A stretch of 64,000 bases of DNA, taken from assembly GCA_033439765.1 (NCBI GenBank), contig JAULSN010000005.1, positions 3,177,001 through 3,241,000 of the forward strand, written 5' to 3'. The stretch comes from Lasiosphaeria ovina. Lineage: Eukaryota; Ascomycota; Sordariomycetes; Sordariales; Lasiosphaeriaceae. Every line of letters begins with the position of its first letter. Position 1 is the stretch's first letter. Under the pieces are notes generated by a model, which was not told where the DNA came from, ran no database searches, and was given only the letters and a program-made list of their open reading frames with translations. This document shows, piece by piece, positions 53,239 to 61,761 of the stretch. The position numbers and the translations under genes were made by a program.

Positions 53239-53546
53239 CTGGAATCGATAGGGGAAGATGGGCGAAGATGAGCGAAGATGTATGTTTGAAGAACAATTGA
53301 TGGGGACGCTCGAAGTCAGTCGGCAATGGAAGGGGAAATAAATGTCGCCTGTGCTTGGGTGGGGAATGTTTTTAGGCTTAGCCCCCACGGCACCCGTTCG
53401 CGCTCGTTTTAGCGCCAGTCTCTGCGCCAATCACCAGGGCGCTTCCCCACATTGCCTCGTCGCCGCTCGCCCCTGATAAACAAGCTGCATCCCTTCCATG
53501 TCAGTGTGACCCTGGCTCCTTCCTTTACCCAACATGTTTTCCAAAG

Positions 53547-53656
53547 ATGGACGTTCCCGGGACAGTTTTCTACCTTGTCCCTTATAACAACAACAAACGT
53601 GCTACGGAGGTTGTTCGCGACCCCGCCAACGGCAATCGAAGATGCGTTGCCCCCCA
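53547..53656 (+). pseudogene. FHA-kinase gene, 5' exon portion left of the transposon
   Basis: ATG 53547 opens MDVPGTVFYLVPYNNNKRAT, then VVRDPANGNRRCVAP, ending two bases into the next codon at 53656. The transposon then begins. The last 8 bp, GCCCCCCA, are the first copy of the target duplication. Joining to 59864 gives codon CAC (His) and keeps the frame into LRIGLDQPVKTPPYL. So this is the true N-terminus (36 complete codons) of the gene continued at 59864. The divergent neighbour is the basic repeat protein. Confidence 0.85.
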
Positions 53657-53677
53657 TTATCTCAGCAAGCTCAGACC
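53657..53677 (+). repeat. Left terminal inverted repeat of the DUF6589/RecQ element
   Basis: TTATCTCAGCAAGCTCAGAC plus one base, perfect inverse of 59835-59855. Next to it lie hairpin-forming GGGGCTGCGCCCC and GC-rich subterminal motifs. Confidence 0.95.
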
Positions 53678-53992
53678 AGTACCGTGGCTCAAAGAGGGGC
53701 TGCGCCCCAGTGGGTGCCCTGCGGCCCCGATTTTTTAGATTTTAGGGGACATTGACCCACATATGACCCACAAATAGACATTTGAACCAATCACAACACC
53801 CGGGAAGAAGAGCCACTGTACTGGTCTGAGTGTATAATGTGCCCTGGACCGTAAGGGCGTCGCCAAAACCACCACCTACAATTATTTCCGGGCATTCAGA
53901 AGCAGCAGAACTGATCGCAAAACCAAGCTGTTAGTGTTATTCGAATGCGCGGATTTTTCTGATTATTCCGGTACTAATATTGTCAATAGATC

Positions 53993-56870
53993 ATGTCTGA
54001 CGCGCTAGAAAATGATGATTCCGGCCTTTCAGGTAGTAGCCAGGCATTGCCCCTACGCGGGCATGACGAGAGCTCACAGCTTACTGGCCTAGGCAGCACC
54101 CCTAGACTCACCAGCTCACCTACTAAGGCTATAGAAGCCTCACAACAAGAAGACGAAGATGACGAAGATAACGACCAGTCAGACGATTCGGTACATCCCG
54201 CTAATAATATCGTTTAGAAAACCATTCGGTTATAGTCAACAGAGCGGAAATATAACTATCAACGTATACGCCGGCACGGCGAGGAGTCTCAGAGGTATAA
54301 CCTCGATGCCTTCCTCTTTAGATGGACTGAAGAGGGCACTCCAAATGCCGGGGTACGCACTTAGGCACTCGCACAGGCTCTGATGAACCCTGCCATTCGC
54401 GATGCCCTCAAGTCACAGGGCATTATAGTCGCTAGCGATAATCACGTTGTCGAATCGGGGTCTTTCAGTACTACTATACGCAGGGAGATAAAGAGCTTGA
54501 TTAAGGAGCCGGCTTTTGGTATATTTGAACCTTTTCAGGGATAGTCTATAGTACCTACAACTATTACACAAGTCTATAACACCACCTAGCTCGAAAACAC
54601 TCTCCAAGAAGCCTGGCCAACCCTCAAAAAGGAAGCCCCGAATCTGGTGACCTTTTTATTATAGGTCCTATAGAATCAGGTATATCTCCCATTCCTATAG
54701 GTCATTGTCCTATTCCTATAGGTTATTGTCCTATTCCTATAGCCCTTTATCCTATTCCTATGAGTCTCTCTCCTATTATGGTTCTAATATTATAATAGCG
54801 TATGACCCAAAGAGAACTGGCAAATATGGACTTCGACGACGAGAAAAGCCCCCAAATCTTCCTACTCGCCTCCTTATTTATAGGCGGCTACGTACGTAAT
54901 AACAGCTCTTTCTTAAGAGATATTCTTGGCCTATATATGCTCGCGAACGGCACACTAAGGCGCGTAATAGAGATTCTCGCATATATCGGCCTTATCCCTT
55001 TATATTGGACCCTAAATAAGATGCTGAACGAGATGGTAGAGAGGGCCAAAGAAAACATTAAGAAGGTGGCTCGGGATCCGAACAGTATTATGGTCTACGA
55101 TAACTTCAACTTCATAAGCCGAATAAGAGAGCTAGTTAGCGGGAAGAAAGACGAGATAATTAATCTTATAACGGCCTACATTATATCGTACCCAGAGCTC
55201 GGGGGAGCTATTCAGAAAGCCAATTTCCGGCCTCGAACGAAGATCACGAAGAGGATAATTGTCGATTATATCCTACCGCGCCGAGAGACCGTTAACAATG
55301 CCTCAAAGTAGCTCGTAAAGCAGGCTCTTATAAAGATCTTCATAAAGAACGTCCCTAATATACCTATCGTTAAGAGAGTCAAATACAATACCTCTCCATA
55401 CCTATAGCTCGGTACTATATTTAAGGACGAAGGAACTATCGACGGCGTATACAAATTATATAAAGAGCTCTTCAAACGCAGGCTTGGACTTGATTAACAG
55501 TCTAATATCGATAAACGCCTCACTCTTATTTACGGTAATATGAAAACAACCTCCTTTATTCGCCGCATCAAGCTCTCTCAACTAGAGGCTAGCGAGAAGT
55601 AGGAGCAAAAGAAGTGGCTTATTCCTATGCCCGCTTTCTTTCATATCGAGCTTAACTATATTAAGATACTATTCAGGGTTTTCTAGGATACTAGTAACGA
55701 TAAAAATAGCGTTACTAATACTATTATTTCTTCTAATATTCAATTTTTTCACCGGGGTAAGAACATCACGAAGAATAATATAAAATATTACCAGGTTATG
55801 CCTCTATTAATGCACGGTTATAGTATACGAATCCTAGCCTTCATTCTTAACGAGTTGAAGAAGAAAAACCAGATCAATACCGACAATAACCTCAACGTCG
55901 AAACGGTCCTCGATTTACTAAAGGGCTTAGACCCCGATATTCTTAACGACGCTATCAATACTATTTAGGAGAAATTATTTACCTATAACGCCTAGATAGG
56001 GCGTTATTCCGACCTTACAGAGGGCGATATCATTAACAAGGAGTTCAGAAGCCAGTACCGGCTTCTCTAGTACACTAAGATCCTCTTCATCATTCATAAG
56101 GCCATTCGATACGGTAACTGGGGCACCCTCAGGGATATTATACCGATTCTACCATTATTATTCTAGGGAGGAAGGTCGTCGAATTACGGCCCCGAGATAT
56201 TATATTTTGCCTGGCTTCTACACCCTCGTATTAGCGAGGAGCATACAATACGGGCGATTCTAAAGGGCGGTCTAATTCGTTGCACAATAGCCGGAAGTGG
56301 CTATAAGGCCATCGATCTTATACTTAAACACATCAACGCTTCATATACGCTAGATATTAAGTATAACAAGAACTCAATATACGATATACATGCCACCTTC
56401 TCGCGGCTGGCTCTGAACGGGAACTTCCTAGCCACCATTCGTAAGTCGGTTAAGACTCTCTTCGAGAGTAAACAGAAGGGAACACACAAGGCCGGCGACC
56501 CTACAGCAGACATCATTTCGTACGCATACAAGCTATATAACGATAGCATTACCAAGCGGAATAACAAGGAGGACCGCCCTAAAGCATTTAATACCCCTAA
56601 TATCTTTAAGAGAGGGTAACAAATACTACTGGAAAAGCTTAATAACTTCAATAAGGCTATTATTAAGCCTAAGGACCTTATAGAGTAGCGTCTTGTCCCC
56701 GGGACTATACTAGGTGGCACTAAGGATAGAGAAATTGACTAGGGCGAAGAGGGCCTGCGTTTATTCGATACCGAAGATGACTTCTAGGTACAGGCTATTG
56801 ATCTCACGGGCGACTAGTTAGTAGAGCGCTTAGTAGCGGTTATAGTATAAATAAATAACCCTTAACGGCT
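53993..56870 (+). pseudogene. DUF6589-family protein (transposon ORF), RIP-inactivated
   Basis: From ATG 53993: an acidic Ser-rich N-terminus (ASQQEDEDDEDNDQSDDS), then LFRWTEEGTPNAGVRT and FSTTIRREIKSLIKEPAFGI. The frame shifts near 54645, just before a 21-bp tandem repeat. Then MTQRELANMDFDDEKS (54802) and the family core: ILGLYMLANGTLRRVIEILA, VYDNFNFISRIREL, FKDEGTIDGVYKLYKELF, LIYGNMKTTSFIRRIKLSQL, WLIPMPAFFHIELNYIKILF, YYQVMPLLMHGYSIR, HKAGDPTADIISYAYKLYND. This order matches fungal DUF6589 proteins, whose biochemical role is not established. At least ten stops are all TAG/TAA, with Gln or Trp expected. By position it is the candidate transposase of the element, which is inference. Confidence 0.85.
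54688..54774. repeat. 21-bp tandem repeat in the DUF6589 gene
   Basis: Four copies of CCTATTCCTATAGGTTATTGT-type units encode PIPIGYC-like heptads in the frame of the downstream core. Confidence 0.88.
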
Positions 56871-57159
56871 TACTTTAAGACGATTAGTAGCATTTATACG
56901 CAGGGGACCCCTTTCTTTACCCTTAGGGAGCCCCTTTTTACGCTCAGGGGCTGCCATTTGCCCCACACAGAGCCTCATTTTGGTCCATATAGAGCCTCAA
57001 TTTATAGGGAATAATATATAAATTAATAAGTAATCTAACAAGCTATAGAAATACGCCTAAGGCAGGTAATTAAGCTAGGTAGGTAGGCGAGAGCCGCTTA
57101 GGTACGGCATTTCTACGTTATATATACGACTTCGCTACTACATATACGCGCCCTATATA

Positions 57160-59274
57160 CGAGACCGTAAGGCGGTAGGAGAGTTAATAGATAGCTCTCC
57201 AACCCGCTTGCGTAATATATCGGGAGAAATACCGCCCTCTAAAGTCCTTAAGGCACGAAGGTCGGCCTTCTTCTTCTTCTAAGCACCCCAAAGCTCGTGA
57301 ATCTTATCAATAGATACGAGTAAAAACATTACCAAATTCTCGCCCTCTTCGTCTTAGTGCTCCCAGTCGTTGAGTACCAGGACCTTTACAACGAGGCCCT
57401 CCCAGTTAGTAAAAGGAAGCTCCTTTTTACCCCGGGACTTATATAGCCTTACAATTGCAACCTGGAGCCTCTCGTCCATCCATATCTCGGAGATCACGTT
57501 AAATCTCTTTCTTTCAGGGGGCACAAGAGCCTGAGCCTACTCCTTACACCACGTAGACAACTAATCTAACGCAATACCGGAAAAGGAGCCGGCTTATGGT
57601 TTGTTTTCTCCCTATTAGCGAGGGGGTAAGGGAGGAATTCGACCAAGTACATGGTTACAACTATTACAACAGAGTTATTAATCGACTGGGCGCTTATATT
57701 CGAGCCCAGGGTCATCCGTAGGCTCTTAAAGGTATTTGAGCATATACTCACGGAAGCAGGTGGCGTTGAGAAAACCGAGGAATATTAGATCCATTTTTTC
57801 CCGAGCAACAATATCAGGTTTGGTCCATTTAAGCCGCTCAGGGTAGTCAAATAAGCCCCTGAATTCCGTATCGACTGGCTCAGGAATGACAGCTTAAGAG
57901 ACATCAATAGCTTATAAAGCAATAGATACATCGCTACCGGCTTCGCTAACGGCATCGTCATCCTGCTTAACAAGCTATAGTTAGTTCTAAAGACGACTAG
58001 GTATAGCTGGTATATGAGGCTGGCGGCGGGCTCTTCTTATAGGCGGCCCTCTCGGCTTCGGTAGTAGTTTATTATGACTCCCTAGGTAATCAAATAGGTA
58101 GTAGGGGGCAAATAAATAAGCCTCCCCCTAACCTTCATACTTTCGTATTACTCTTCTAAAACGCTACCAAATGTCTAAAAGACTTTGACCCGGGGGTATG
58201 CCGAACTGAATAATACGCTACATATCGGGTATATCCATCCCTATACCGAGGGATATAGAGGCGAGGACAATACGGTAGTCGGTATCTCTATTCGCGAAGT
58301 CTTTAAAGATGATCTCTTGGTCGGTTGGGCGTACATCTACATCGTACCGGCGTATGACCTTGGCTATAAACTGACTTGTGAAGCTACAGGACTTTTGAAG
58401 GTATTTGAGAAGGATATACCGGGCCAGGATCAGCTTGGGCTTGCTATTAATATATATAATTGTTTTTTTTATCAGCCGGGCTTCGTTAGGCTTAGATCCT
58501 TCTATAAGGAAATAAAGGCGCCTAAAATCCGTAATAACCTTCCTTATTAATGGTAATAGGATGACCGTGATCTCGGGCCTATCGATCGATATATGGATTA
58601 TTCGGAGATTTCTCTAATCAAAGCCGGCATACTTAAGTATATATACCTAGTTGTCCTTGTCCAGCGTTGCCGTACAGCTAAAGAATGGAATTCTTCTCGG
58701 TATTAACGCCCTTAACGTATGTAAATAGGTGAATTCCTCCCGGAACTCTCGCTATTCGCTAATTATATGAAGTTCATCTATAGCGAAGAGTCCAAGCTTG
58801 CTATGAAAATCGGGATTACGAAGGACCGCTTTGAACTTCGGGCTAATAGCTTGTTCAGGGCTTAGAAGTATATGATTATATTGGCCAGCTTTGACTTTAT
58901 TCTAAACGTTCGGGTTCTAGATAAATTAGTTAGCCTTATTTAGGGGTTAGGGGTAAAAAGGGGCTGACCTTGAGGTTGGTGTTATTGTCAATCTAGATAG
59001 GCTTCGAAGAAGGGACTGCCCGGGTAATGTCATCCCGCTGGTTCTCGCCTAGCTTCGTGAGAGGGACTATTTGTACTATAGTAAGCATCGTGAGTGCCGA
59101 GAAGGCGTATAATACGGCGCTTTTGCCGTAGCCAGTTACGGCGACGAGGACCGTATCCTTCTTCTGGTGTACGAGCCGATATACTGCCTCAACCTGTCCC
59201 TGGCGGGCTTCCTTTACGCCTGTGATCTTACAGATCACATCGTTGATACGTTTTTTATCCGTATTTTCGTCCAT
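57160..59274 (-). pseudogene. RecQ-like DNA helicase of the transposon, RIP-inactivated
   Basis: Starts MDENTDKKRINDVICKITGV (59274; 36 further codons are open upstream). Motif I VAVTGYGKSAVL and motif Ia QIVPLTKLGENQRDD are open to 58993. Further pieces on the minus strand: SPEQAISPKFKAVLRNPDF, motif II AIDELH, SCTATLD (motif III), IIYINSKPKL, RIVLASISLGIGMDIPDM (motif V), RFRRVIRK (motif VI area) and a Cys-rich part (ATCFREYMLKYLQEP, LCCNCNH) as in RecQ zinc regions. The C-terminal tail is FNVISEIWMDERLQVAIVRL, VVKVLVLNDWEH. Frame breaks and TAG stops occur from about 58980 leftwards. The family unwinds DNA 3' to 5' with ATP. It resembles fungal telomere-linked RecQ genes, but here it lies inside a transposon. 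Confidence 0.82.
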
Positions 59275-59675
59275 TTTGGGGCGCCGTAGGCGGTCTTCCG
59301 AAAGGTCGAAAGGAAGAGGTAGGTTATAGGAGGAAAAAATTGCATGCGGAGGATGCCCTGCGCGAGGGTATTCTATGTGCAAATTTTCAGATTTTTTGGC
59401 CCAGTATTGGTGGTATAGTTGGGATGAAGCTACCGTTCAGAAGTTGGCGACGTCCATCTAATTTTTCGTTTGGAGCTAGATTTGACACTTCTACCAACAA
59501 TAAAGATATAAAAATTATACTATTCGACTTATAAGCTTCTTAGTATCTTCAGACATATATTTTTATATTAATACGATATGGTGATGTTGCGCAGTTGAAG
59601 GAAAACAAATTACCATTTTTTAGATTTGTATGGCAGTTATATCCCTCCATCCGACTACTGCAACATTTCTCTCTC

Positions 59676-59842
59676 AGACCTCTTTTTCAGGCGTTCTGAG
59701 CAATATGGGTCCAAGTGGGTCTATCTGAGCCACACCAAAAATTTGCGGGTCACAGGATACGAATGCGGTCTAGGGTGCCATTTTTTATGGGGGGTGCCGC
59801 AGGCACCTTCCTTCAATTCTACGCCTGAAAAAGAGGTCTGAG
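59676..59842. repeat. Subterminal 22-bp palindrome arms at the right end of the transposon
   Basis: CTCAGACCTCTTTTTCAGGC at 59676 has its exact inverse at 59821-59842, with about 123 bp between. The inner part holds a further hairpin GGTGCC-GCA-GGCACC. The outer arm overlaps the terminal inverted repeat. Confidence 0.88.
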
Positions 59843-59855
59843 CTTGCTGAGATAA
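59835..59855 (-). repeat. Right terminal inverted repeat of the DUF6589/RecQ element
   Basis: GGTCTGAGCTTGCTGAGATA plus one base, followed by GCCCCCCA (59856-59863), the second duplication copy. Confidence 0.95.
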
Positions 59856-59863
59856 GCCCCCCA

Positions 59864-61761
59864 CATCGCAACTGTCCCATGCTTGCGAATTGGGCTAGAC
59901 CAACCAGTTAAAACACCGCCTTACCTCGTTACCTTCGGCAGGCGTGACCACAACGATGTGATCCTCGGTCCTTACTTTTCAAGAAACGACCAGTGCTATT
60001 TCGATTTCAACAAGGAAACCGGCGAGCTCCTCCTCCACGATACATCAGTGAAGAACGACACGCAACTCTACCACGTCATCACAAACAAAACCACGAAGGA
60101 GTCGCAACGTACTGGGCAAATATGGAAGTCTCCTCGACAATGCGTCGTGGTACTTACCCCCGACCCCAACCGCGAAGTAATCCTCAAAATCGGCACAGCA
60201 GAGTTCGATCTCATAGCGCCAAGAACGCAGGGTCAAGATGGGGAAAGTCTCACCAAGCAGAAGCTTGCCTTTGCCCACCAACCCGACCCCGAGCGAACGG
60301 TCGAGGGGACTCTGGAGCGGCTCATCACGCTGGGCTTACAGTCTCTCCGATCTGAAGCAATGACAACCACCTACCAAACCGCGTCGACGATTACCTACAA
60401 CCCCCACAACACTCGGTTCAGAACCCCACTCGAGCCTGAAGCGAACGATGTGATCCGATTTACAAAGCTGAAGCCGCTGGGAAGAGGTGGACAGGGCGAT
60501 GTGCACAAGGTGGTCGACAAGTATAATGGCAACCACCACGCCTGCAAAATTATCGCTGTGAAGGCCGAGGTACCAGACTTGAACATATATTCGGAGAAGG
60601 ACTTCAGGGCAAAGGTTGAAATGGAAGTAAATTTGGTTCGGCAACTCGAGCATGTAAGCTCCTCTTTCTGCTTGTCCGCTTTCTGCTCGTCCGCTTTCAT
60701 CCTGCTCACAATTGTATTAGGACCATATCGTACCATACATACACTGCCAGGGATTCAAGAGTCAGAATATCCAGCTTTTCATGCCTATCTTGAATGGTAG
60801 CCTTCACGACCTGTTAAGGCAATATAGACCTGAAGGTCCACAAGCGGTGATGGATATGACCGACAGGATGCTCTCTCAGATCTCGGGCGCCCTCGATTAC
60901 GTACACACGCACGACCCTCCTATGATTCATCGAGATATTAAGCCTGCGAATATTCTATATGAAGGCAGCCGAGGCGTAAAGTTCCTCCTGACGGACTTCG
61001 GTATCGCAAAGGTCGTCGACACGTCAAAGACTCTGATCGGAACTCCGTGGTACGCGGCGCCTGAGGTCTGGCGGAAACTTGAGCAGACGCCTAAGGTCGA
61101 CATATACTCGCTTGGTGTGACCGTGGTGGAGTGTTTGGTGGGACTCCCAAACGAAGAAGGGAGGCGGGCGATATGGGACTGGCAGCAGTGGTACGAAGAA
61201 CTCGAGACACTTATGAACCAGCACGCACCTCAGTGCAGATCTATGCTTGCAAACGACCCTTATGAGCGCCCAACGGCTCGCGAGCTTCTCAATCAACTCT
61301 CTTTCCAGCTAACTCACGCCCCATTACGAAATCCGCAAACTGATGCCACCTGGACGAGCTTGGGAGTGTCGTTACCTGCGGACGAGGCGAACGGGGCGAC
61401 AGTGATATACCCGGCGGCACCTACTGCCATGGATTGGACGCAAAGAGTAGCTACAGCGATTTTCCAGGGAGTCTCCCAGCCTACGCAGCAGAATGAGAGC
61501 ATGCAACCGCCGCAGCCAAACCCAGGGCTAGTCCAATCACCAAAGGCGCCTCCCAATCGACCGGTACAGCTAAGAGCGCGTGGAGGGTCTGTCAAGTCCT
61601 CAAAGTCCGCAGACGAAAGGAAAGGTCACAGGCGTGGGTCGTCACAGAGTGGGCCGTCTCGACCCGCACGGGTACCAAAACGAACACCCTCAAGCGGAAA
61701 GGGGCGGCCAAAATCGAGAAGCATATACAAGGCACAGGAGTTACGTGCATTGGGAATTTGA
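59864..61761 (+). CDS. FHA-domain Ser/Thr protein kinase, main part right of the transposon
   Basis: Exons 59864-60653 and 60721-61761 (67-bp intron, GTAAGC to TTAG, phase 0). Together with 53547-53656 the intact gene would encode 646 residues. An FHA-like domain (phosphothreonine binding) is at about residues 45-110 (FGRRDHNDVILG, LLHDTSVKNDTQL); its usual SxxH reads SRNDQ. Kinase domain about 238-490: LGRGGQGDVHKV, lysine in HACKIIAVK, HRDIKPANILY (about 369), TDFGIAK (about 391), GTPWYAAPEVW, DIYSLGVTVVECL. The basic, Pro/Ser-rich tail may be regulatory. All catalytic residues are present. Split by the transposon, it has no native start; a shorter kinase-only product from an internal ATG is possible. 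The family joins FHA and kinase as in CHK2/RAD53-like or other fungal signalling kinases; orthology is not assigned. Confidence 0.85.

Follow-up and report, generated by a model that had tools for sequence, protein, structure and literature searches.

A probable DDE-type transposon family in Lasiosphaeria ovina that pairs a DUF6589 gene with a convergent RecQ-family helicase gene

What kind of element holds a gene for a DUF6589 protein and a RecQ-like helicase gene between perfect inverted ends? This question is raised by a 6,199-bp segment (positions 53657-59855) of a 64,000-nucleotide stretch of contig JAULSN010000005.1 of Lasiosphaeria ovina, a sordarialean fungus; we refer to the whole stretch as the window. 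A preliminary description, made from the letters of the window, had proposed that the segment is a mobile element. Here, we analyzed its ends, its copies in the host genome, and its two genes, and we consider it likely that the segment is a copy, damaged by repeat-induced point mutation (RIP), of a family of class II transposons of autonomous type, in which the DUF6589 protein would be the DDE-type transposase and the helicase an accessory protein. The features on which this reading is based are as follows.

53649..53656, no strand: left copy of the target-site duplication (TSD), 8 bp, GCCCCCCA
53657..53677, + strand: left terminal inverted repeat (TIR), TTATCTCAGCAAGCTCAGACC, with identical ends in further copies
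53993..56859, + strand: DUF6589 gene, decayed, encoding the candidate transposase; main exon 54796-56859
57200..59277, - strand: RecQ-family helicase gene, decayed, convergent with the DUF6589 gene; the 57200 end is approximate
58041-58850, - strand: helicase piece, from the DExH motif to motif VI
58993-59277, - strand: helicase piece, Walker A region
59835..59855, - strand: right TIR, inverted-repeat match to the left TIR
59856..59863, no strand: right copy of the TSD, 8 bp, GCCCCCCA

The two TIR arms, each of 21 nt, are 100% complementary, and the element lies between two identical copies of GCCCCCCA, as the preliminary description had stated for both the inverted ends and the 8-bp duplication. 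With up to three mismatches allowed, the TIR was found at two places in the window and in none of 100 shuffles, which excludes a chance origin. The termini read TT..AA, and the TIRs are of the type TTATCTCAG...CTCAGAC. Between them, the DUF6589 gene on the + strand and the helicase gene on the - strand are the sole genes recognized; both are decayed, as had also been described, with in-frame stops and with copies that differ mostly by RIP-type transitions.

The same unit recurs in the host genome (51.7 Mb in 32 contigs), from which all of the TIR and TSD evidence was read; in the labels used below, C denotes a contig, L a locus, and P a protein. A DNA search with the window element gave at least 65 matches, of which five, including the window copy at ~3.23 Mb along a 4.08-Mb contig, are uninterrupted and full length; two fragments (C32:41 and C6:3143) lie close to contig starts. 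The TIR pattern, with at most one mismatch, occurs at 56 places in the 51.7 Mb, compared with 1 for the reversed pattern. Without mismatch, it occurs at 41 places in the host genome, compared with seven stretches in 257 billion prokaryote bases; nine stretches were found in 2.9 million viral contigs, and we take the viral and prokaryote stretches as chance background. To count TSDs, we used 15 elements with both ends read, from which one-ended copies (such as L014, L015, L019, L023, L024, L028, and L056), L050 with its truncated ends, and a possible end pair on C27 (4725304 and 4760135, with 34.8 kb between them), the flanks of which differ at three of eight bases as counted by eye, had been left out before counting. 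A perfect 8-bp TSD flanks 11 of the 15 elements, and a TSD altered by transitions only flanks two more (one transition in the C29 element, two in the C7 element). The flanks matched at 9 bp in none of the 15, and none of 210 swapped flank pairs matched perfectly, which excludes flanks matched by chance. Thus, the mobility proposed for the segment is borne out by recurrence of the unit with TTATCTCAG TIRs and 8-bp TSDs.

Two copies with unusual ends were observed as well. At C3:534141-558042 (L010 and L011), a window-family copy, the outer ends of which are still flanked by the perfect TSD GTTTGTCC, is split over ~24 kb, presumably by later insertions. At L052:2440 and 2666 (C6:364439 and 364665), two tandem TTATCTCGG ends, both preceded by cccgcgtg, lie ahead of a decayed DUF6589 copy, and a separate-looking hAT remnant lies further along.

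Are the two genes part of the machinery of the element, or are they its cargo? Of 21 DUF6589 matches, 13 have a listed TIR end at a distance of 6 kb or less, as do 16 of 27 helicase matches and one of 26 matches to the hAT dimerization domain. The check proposed in the preliminary description, namely whether DUF6589 genes lie recurrently within such TIRs and 8-bp TSDs with RecQ among them, had a positive outcome in the host genome. The 26 hAT matches, together with the TSD of hAT elements, which is usually 8 bp in published descriptions, would suit a scenario in which a DUF6589-RecQ cassette is the passive passenger of another transposase with an 8-bp TSD, such as that of hAT. We consider this scenario highly improbable: the only hAT match near a listed TTATCTCAG end has the look of a separate remnant, none of the 26 has coordinates within any of the 15 elements, the DUF6589 and helicase genes are retained across families with this kind of TIR, and no element with the same TIR and a hAT transposase in place of DUF6589 was seen. 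A host locus mobilized by hAT was rejected on the same positions of the hAT matches.

Based on sequence comparisons, the helicase belongs to the RecQ family. The piece at 58041-58850, which contains six TAG codons, matches the helicase piece of the related element at L055 at 1.0e-102. The L055 pieces match the RecQ family model TIGR00614 at 2.9e-21 and 2.0e-06, both under the curated full-length cut-off, and match chains in the PDB of RecQ (3.4e-12) and WRN (5.8e-11); the Pfam domains DEAD and Helicase_C were also found. In L050, an open reading frame (ORF) read by eye has a cysteine cluster past the helicase core that resembles the RecQ zinc motif; the best PDB matches of this piece end before the cluster.

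The convergent layout is kept in four divergent elements, L050 (C5), L054 (C12), L055 (C23), and L056 (C32), which match the DUF6589 and helicase parts of the window at 63-74% DNA identity. L054 and L055 have TTATCTCAG TIRs and perfect 8-bp TSDs; in L056 the right end alone was located, and no ends belonging to the L050 gene itself were found. Transversions are changes that RIP does not cause. Between L050 and the window, DUF6589 transversions number 104/63/191 at the first, second, and third codon positions; for the helicase, they number 44/24/78 between L055 and L050 and 52/28/86 between L055 and the window. This excess at third positions is what purifying selection on both genes would give. 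Because divergent families keep the ends, the TSD, the gene pair, and the third-position excess, we favor a DUF6589 transposase with a conserved accessory helicase. An alternative is that DUF6589 transposes by itself, the helicase being a RecQ gene that was captured from the host or from a subtelomere and has no part in movement. Subtelomeric RecQ-like genes are described for several fungi, e.g., Mycosphaerella graminicola (PMC4522978), and like those genes the helicase here lies within repeated DNA; unlike them, it lies in TIR-bounded elements together with DUF6589, and the window copy is placed well within its contig. A telomere-linked RecQ gene was rejected as an identity for the helicase. 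Two deletion derivatives without the helicase core and most of DUF6589 moved recently, as capture would allow, though possibly in trans; the helicase is equally placed and convergent in five families (window, L050, L054, L055, and L056) and, among the window, L050, and L055, is 58-69% identical with the third-position excess, and we judge capture unlikely.

Two side observations concern these divergent loci. At L050:6889-7300 (C5:209888-210299), a second left-type end lies ~0.5 kb past the N-terminal exon of the P0003 gene and faces away from it, while the left end of the P0003 gene itself was not found, which suggests a rearrangement. At L054:6244-7236, an ORF that by eye resembles a retrotransposon gag lies between the DUF6589 parts and may account for the 8,173-bp length of the L054 element.

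When did the family move? Pairwise comparisons of the C6, C29, and C1 copies gave 587 transitions (C6-C29), 271 transitions (C6-C1), and 567 transitions (C29-C1) without a single transversion, and the window copy differs from the copy at C32:598409 by 326 transitions and three transversions. In an alignment of five copies, 725 of 1,272 C/T or G/A columns have a CpA or TpG context. The two most similar insertions observed, L012 and L013 (C12:3194855 and C30:1599926), are 1,985-bp deletion derivatives that lack the middle of the element, with the helicase core and most of DUF6589, and differ by one base; they occupy separate sites with different perfect TSDs. Because three copies differ by transitions only and the derivatives by one base, the family, judged from these substitutions, transposed recently and was then hit by RIP. 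Movement of the derivatives in trans is suggested because these near-identical, middle-less elements sit at different sites with perfect TSDs. The RIP dinucleotide indices are 1.22 and 0.84 for the window copy, 1.44 and 0.66 for the rest of the window, and 1.02 and 1.07 for the C6 copy, which shows little RIP. RIP is thus not peculiar to the element, the remaining window being at least as RIP-like as the copy in it.

Is the DUF6589 protein a plausible transposase? With stops read through, 54796-56859 on the + strand matches DUF6589 at 2.6e-46 (158.6 bits versus a cut-off of 27), and the domain in the window contains seven TAG codons and one TAA; the gene start (ATG at 53993) and the intron positions were assigned by eye from relatives. 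DUF6589 is PF20231, a family without a curated function; the literature searched did not mention DUF6589 by name, nor PF20231 among the best-ranked matches. In protein searches that each scored ~8,000 candidates, the relatives with names come from Sordariomycetes and from Exidia (P0039), a basidiomycete; the others have no species name. The third of these searches gave one basidiomycete protein, again P0039, and none of the 10 matches listed has an XPG or helicase domain. The DUF6589 alignment has 22 conserved acidic columns, numbered here after P0003, the product of the intact gene in L050. From motif context, we picked as candidate catalytic residues D220 in VYDNFNF (conserved in 21/23), D364 in YGDxKT (25/27), and either E578 in NYGPE (20/21) or E622 in LEHIN (21/21), all four of which are present in P0039 of Exidia at 21% identity. 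A hAT-like DDE transposase has the D motifs in order, a strand-like stretch before each, and a long insert preceding the last E; in DUF6589, strand-like stretches lie ahead of both D motifs and a long insert lies ahead of the last E. On these sequence features, DUF6589 is most likely a DDE-type transposase.

Comparisons outside fungal proteins gave little. A PADLOC search gave nothing, a search of PHROGs gave a single weak match (E 0.018) to an entry of unknown function, and searches for relatives in viral contigs gave 34 and 3 pattern stretches with no true relative among them. Separately, four proteins of 320-343 aa, P0035-P0038, from Jackrogersella, Hypoxylon (two), and Daldinia (Hypoxylaceae), match the N-terminal part of DUF6589 proteins, and three of the four terminate ahead of the first D motif; they are possibly exapted (domesticated) genes or gene models of decayed copies. 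The presumed intron of the window gene contains a further repeat.

54678..54761, + strand: four tandem 21-bp copies around TGTCCTATTCCTAT, in the presumed DUF6589 intron

Several observations weigh against a DUF6589 transposase moving this family. Its DDE chemistry is read from motifs, the third catalytic acid is ambiguous between E578 and E622, and other acidic columns are equally strong, i.e., E57 (16/16), D212 (21/22), E331 (24/26), and E762 (19/19). The C/DxxH signature, given between the second D and the E for hAT, P, Kolobok, MuDR, and Dada in published descriptions, is absent: H399 is kept in 25/26 sequences, and three positions before it an A stands in 23/26 and a C in 1/26. Among PDB sequences, no DUF6589 match had an E value below 0.8. 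The end evidence comes from a single genome, two of the 15 elements (C6:302850 and C12:1275682) have no TSD, and the third-position excess is a raw count rather than a formal selection test. Finally, 8 of the 21 DUF6589 matches and 11 of the 27 helicase matches lie more than 6 kb from any listed TIR end. The preliminary description had named as refuting outcomes DUF6589 copies lacking such ends and another element acting as carrier; no such carrier was seen, and the eight distant DUF6589 matches bear on the first outcome. The TIR pattern misses ends that are one base shorter (L054), one base longer (L056), or mutated (C29); at least three of the eight (L054, C29, and L056) have one or both ends read, and the 11 distant helicase matches include fragments as well as parts of elements with ends that the pattern misses.

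How does the family compare with known transposons? The preliminary description knew of no superfamily with this pair of genes, which did not hold, as the pairing of a transposase with a helicase in TIR transposons is already known from AcademH and KolobokH. The comparison draws on the accounts cited here and on PMC12730594, PMC3706591, PMC10294476, PMC12210899, and PMC8290104. In these accounts, AcademH, the helicase-bearing lineage of the Academ superfamily (Kojima 2020, as cited in PMC10045372 and PMC10799480), is a TIR transposon of fungi (Ascomycota, Basidiomycota, and Mucoromycota) and animals that encodes a transposase and a helicase, with a TSD of 9 or 10 bp compared with 3 or 4 bp for AcademX (PMC10045372). 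KolobokH of fungi has a DDD/E transposase and a RecQ helicase, and in Kolobok-1_CCri of a rhodophyte RecQ lies on the opposite strand (PMC9587614), as in the window. Kolobok elements have a 4-bp TTAA TSD and 5'-RR..YY-3' termini, unlike the varied 8-bp TSDs and TT..AA termini described here. Judged by its TSD, the element fits neither the published description of AcademH nor Kolobok. It resembles hAT in its 8-bp TSD and short TIRs and differs in its extra helicase gene, in the missing C/DxxH signature, and in that Pfam scans of DUF6589 proteins gave no hAT dimerization domain (PF05699). With KDZ/Zisupton it shares fungal occurrence and, for Zisupton, an 8-bp TSD in published descriptions; it is set apart by its RecQ helicase gene and by the lack of any KDZ Pfam match at E values up to 0.1 in 28 members of the DUF6589 alignment. 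A Helitron, described as having neither TIR nor TSD, was rejected since both are present.

The element resembles AcademH in being a TIR DNA element of a fungus with a helicase gene and, here, a candidate transposase gene, and DEAD and Helicase_C, both found here, are the Pfam domains named for the AcademH and KolobokH helicases in published descriptions. The element could therefore belong to the AcademH lineage, with DUF6589 being merely the Pfam name of an Academ-type DDD/E transposase and with a TSD of slightly different length. This assignment, which is compatible with the transposon reading favored here, is plausible, if somewhat short of an even chance; the TSD, 8 bp in 13 of 15 elements (11 perfect and two with transitions only) versus the reported 9-10 bp, speaks against it and sets the element apart from AcademH by description only.

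What might the helicase do? A clue could lie in fold-backs at the ends of the element.

53670..53690, + strand: left fold-back, outer arm
53810..53830, - strand: left fold-back, inner inverted arm, 95% complementary
59673..59694, + strand: right fold-back, inner arm, 22 nt, 100% complementary to the outer arm
59821..59842, - strand: right fold-back, outer arm

Each end begins with TTATCTCAG, from position 13-15 onward continues into an outer arm of CTCAGAC plus ~13 bases, and has an inverted inner arm that ends 128-241 bases from the terminus. The stems in the window are 21 and 22 bp, and single-strand folds of the ends have z scores of -5.4 and -6.4 relative to shuffles; the stretches between the arms folded unremarkably (z -0.7 and -0.5). 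Outside the core, left and right arms share 2-5 of 13 bases. Left ends match themselves at 12, 12, 10, and 11 of 13 positions (window, L054, L055, and the second end in L050), and the same four ends compared between families match at 2-9 of 13; for right ends (window, L054, and L055), the corresponding figures are 12-13 within and 9-11 between families, the C6 copy of the window family being excluded from all between-family figures. As judged from these matches, the left arms covary, i.e., change together, between families. Such covariation would be expected from pairing, from two binding sites each specific to one end, or from copying between the arms, and is not predicted by a single binding site common to the two ends.

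We also applied a preset test to 17 TIR ends not read before, asking for an inner arm that ends 120-215 nt in and has at least 9 of 13 matches; the range actually scanned was 100-235 nt. Four of the 17 ends reached 9/13, three within the preset range and the fourth at 234, and among the four was L092, a one-mismatch end expected to fail if the matches were due to chance. Shuffles reached the threshold once in 8,500; swapped ends, among which same-family pairs were counted, did so in 13 of 272. The core of the inner arm was found in 6 of the 17 ends and not in the other 11. Post hoc, 131 further bases for one end revealed an inner arm at 241 (9/13), after which all four ends of the two TSD-bearing elements among the 17 each had an inner arm (8-10/13, ungapped). 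L085-L087, which have a similar right-type outer arm, may have an inner arm beyond the range read, and the other seven ends had none in the scanned range. Among the 15 elements with both ends read, the eight examined (window, C32:598409, C6:302850, C12:3194855, L054, L055, C6:139688, and C32:131618) all have inner arms at both ends; the fold-back claim holds for these eight bounded elements, stray ends excepted.

We propose that the DUF6589 protein would bind the TIRs, excise the element, and insert it at a new site with an 8-bp stagger, and that it would also mobilize the deletion derivatives in trans. The helicase could act as an accessory that unwinds or remodels ends, gaps, or repair intermediates; either it or a transposase complex that binds paired sites could plausibly act on the end-specific fold-backs, which have stems of 20-22 bp. 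A bolder version, which we hold to be rather doubtful, is that DUF6589 forms the catalytic core of a DDE superfamily not yet described, with TTATCTCAG ends, an 8-bp TSD, and RecQ as an obligate partner, in which the covarying fold-backs would depend on pairing, as a hairpin or cruciform that forms when the DNA is single-stranded or negatively supercoiled, and would be opened or remodeled by the helicase in excision or end repair. We consider a pairing role because left and right fold-backs differ and yet each matches itself, which one shared protein-binding site does not explain.

The insertion in the window probably also split a gene of the host.

53382..60800, + strand: host gene split by the insertion, with flanks that continue in one frame over the empty site

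When 90 bases of each flank are joined via one TSD copy, a single open frame results, so that the insertion site is probably within a coding exon. The right part of this gene has a weak protein-kinase match, under the Pfam cut-off.

Altogether, our findings assign to DUF6589, a fungal domain with no curated function, the specific and probable role of a transposase. Gene models that bear the DUF6589 label in Sordariomycetes, and perhaps also those of Exidia and other basidiomycetes, can thus be re-examined as possible transposons. The family would be a further DDE-type element with a helicase, beside AcademH and KolobokH. In the young copies, which differ by transitions only, transposition and subsequent RIP are cleanly recorded. 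Moreover, the end-specific fold-backs, with arms that covary between families, may offer a testable clue to why such an element carries a helicase.

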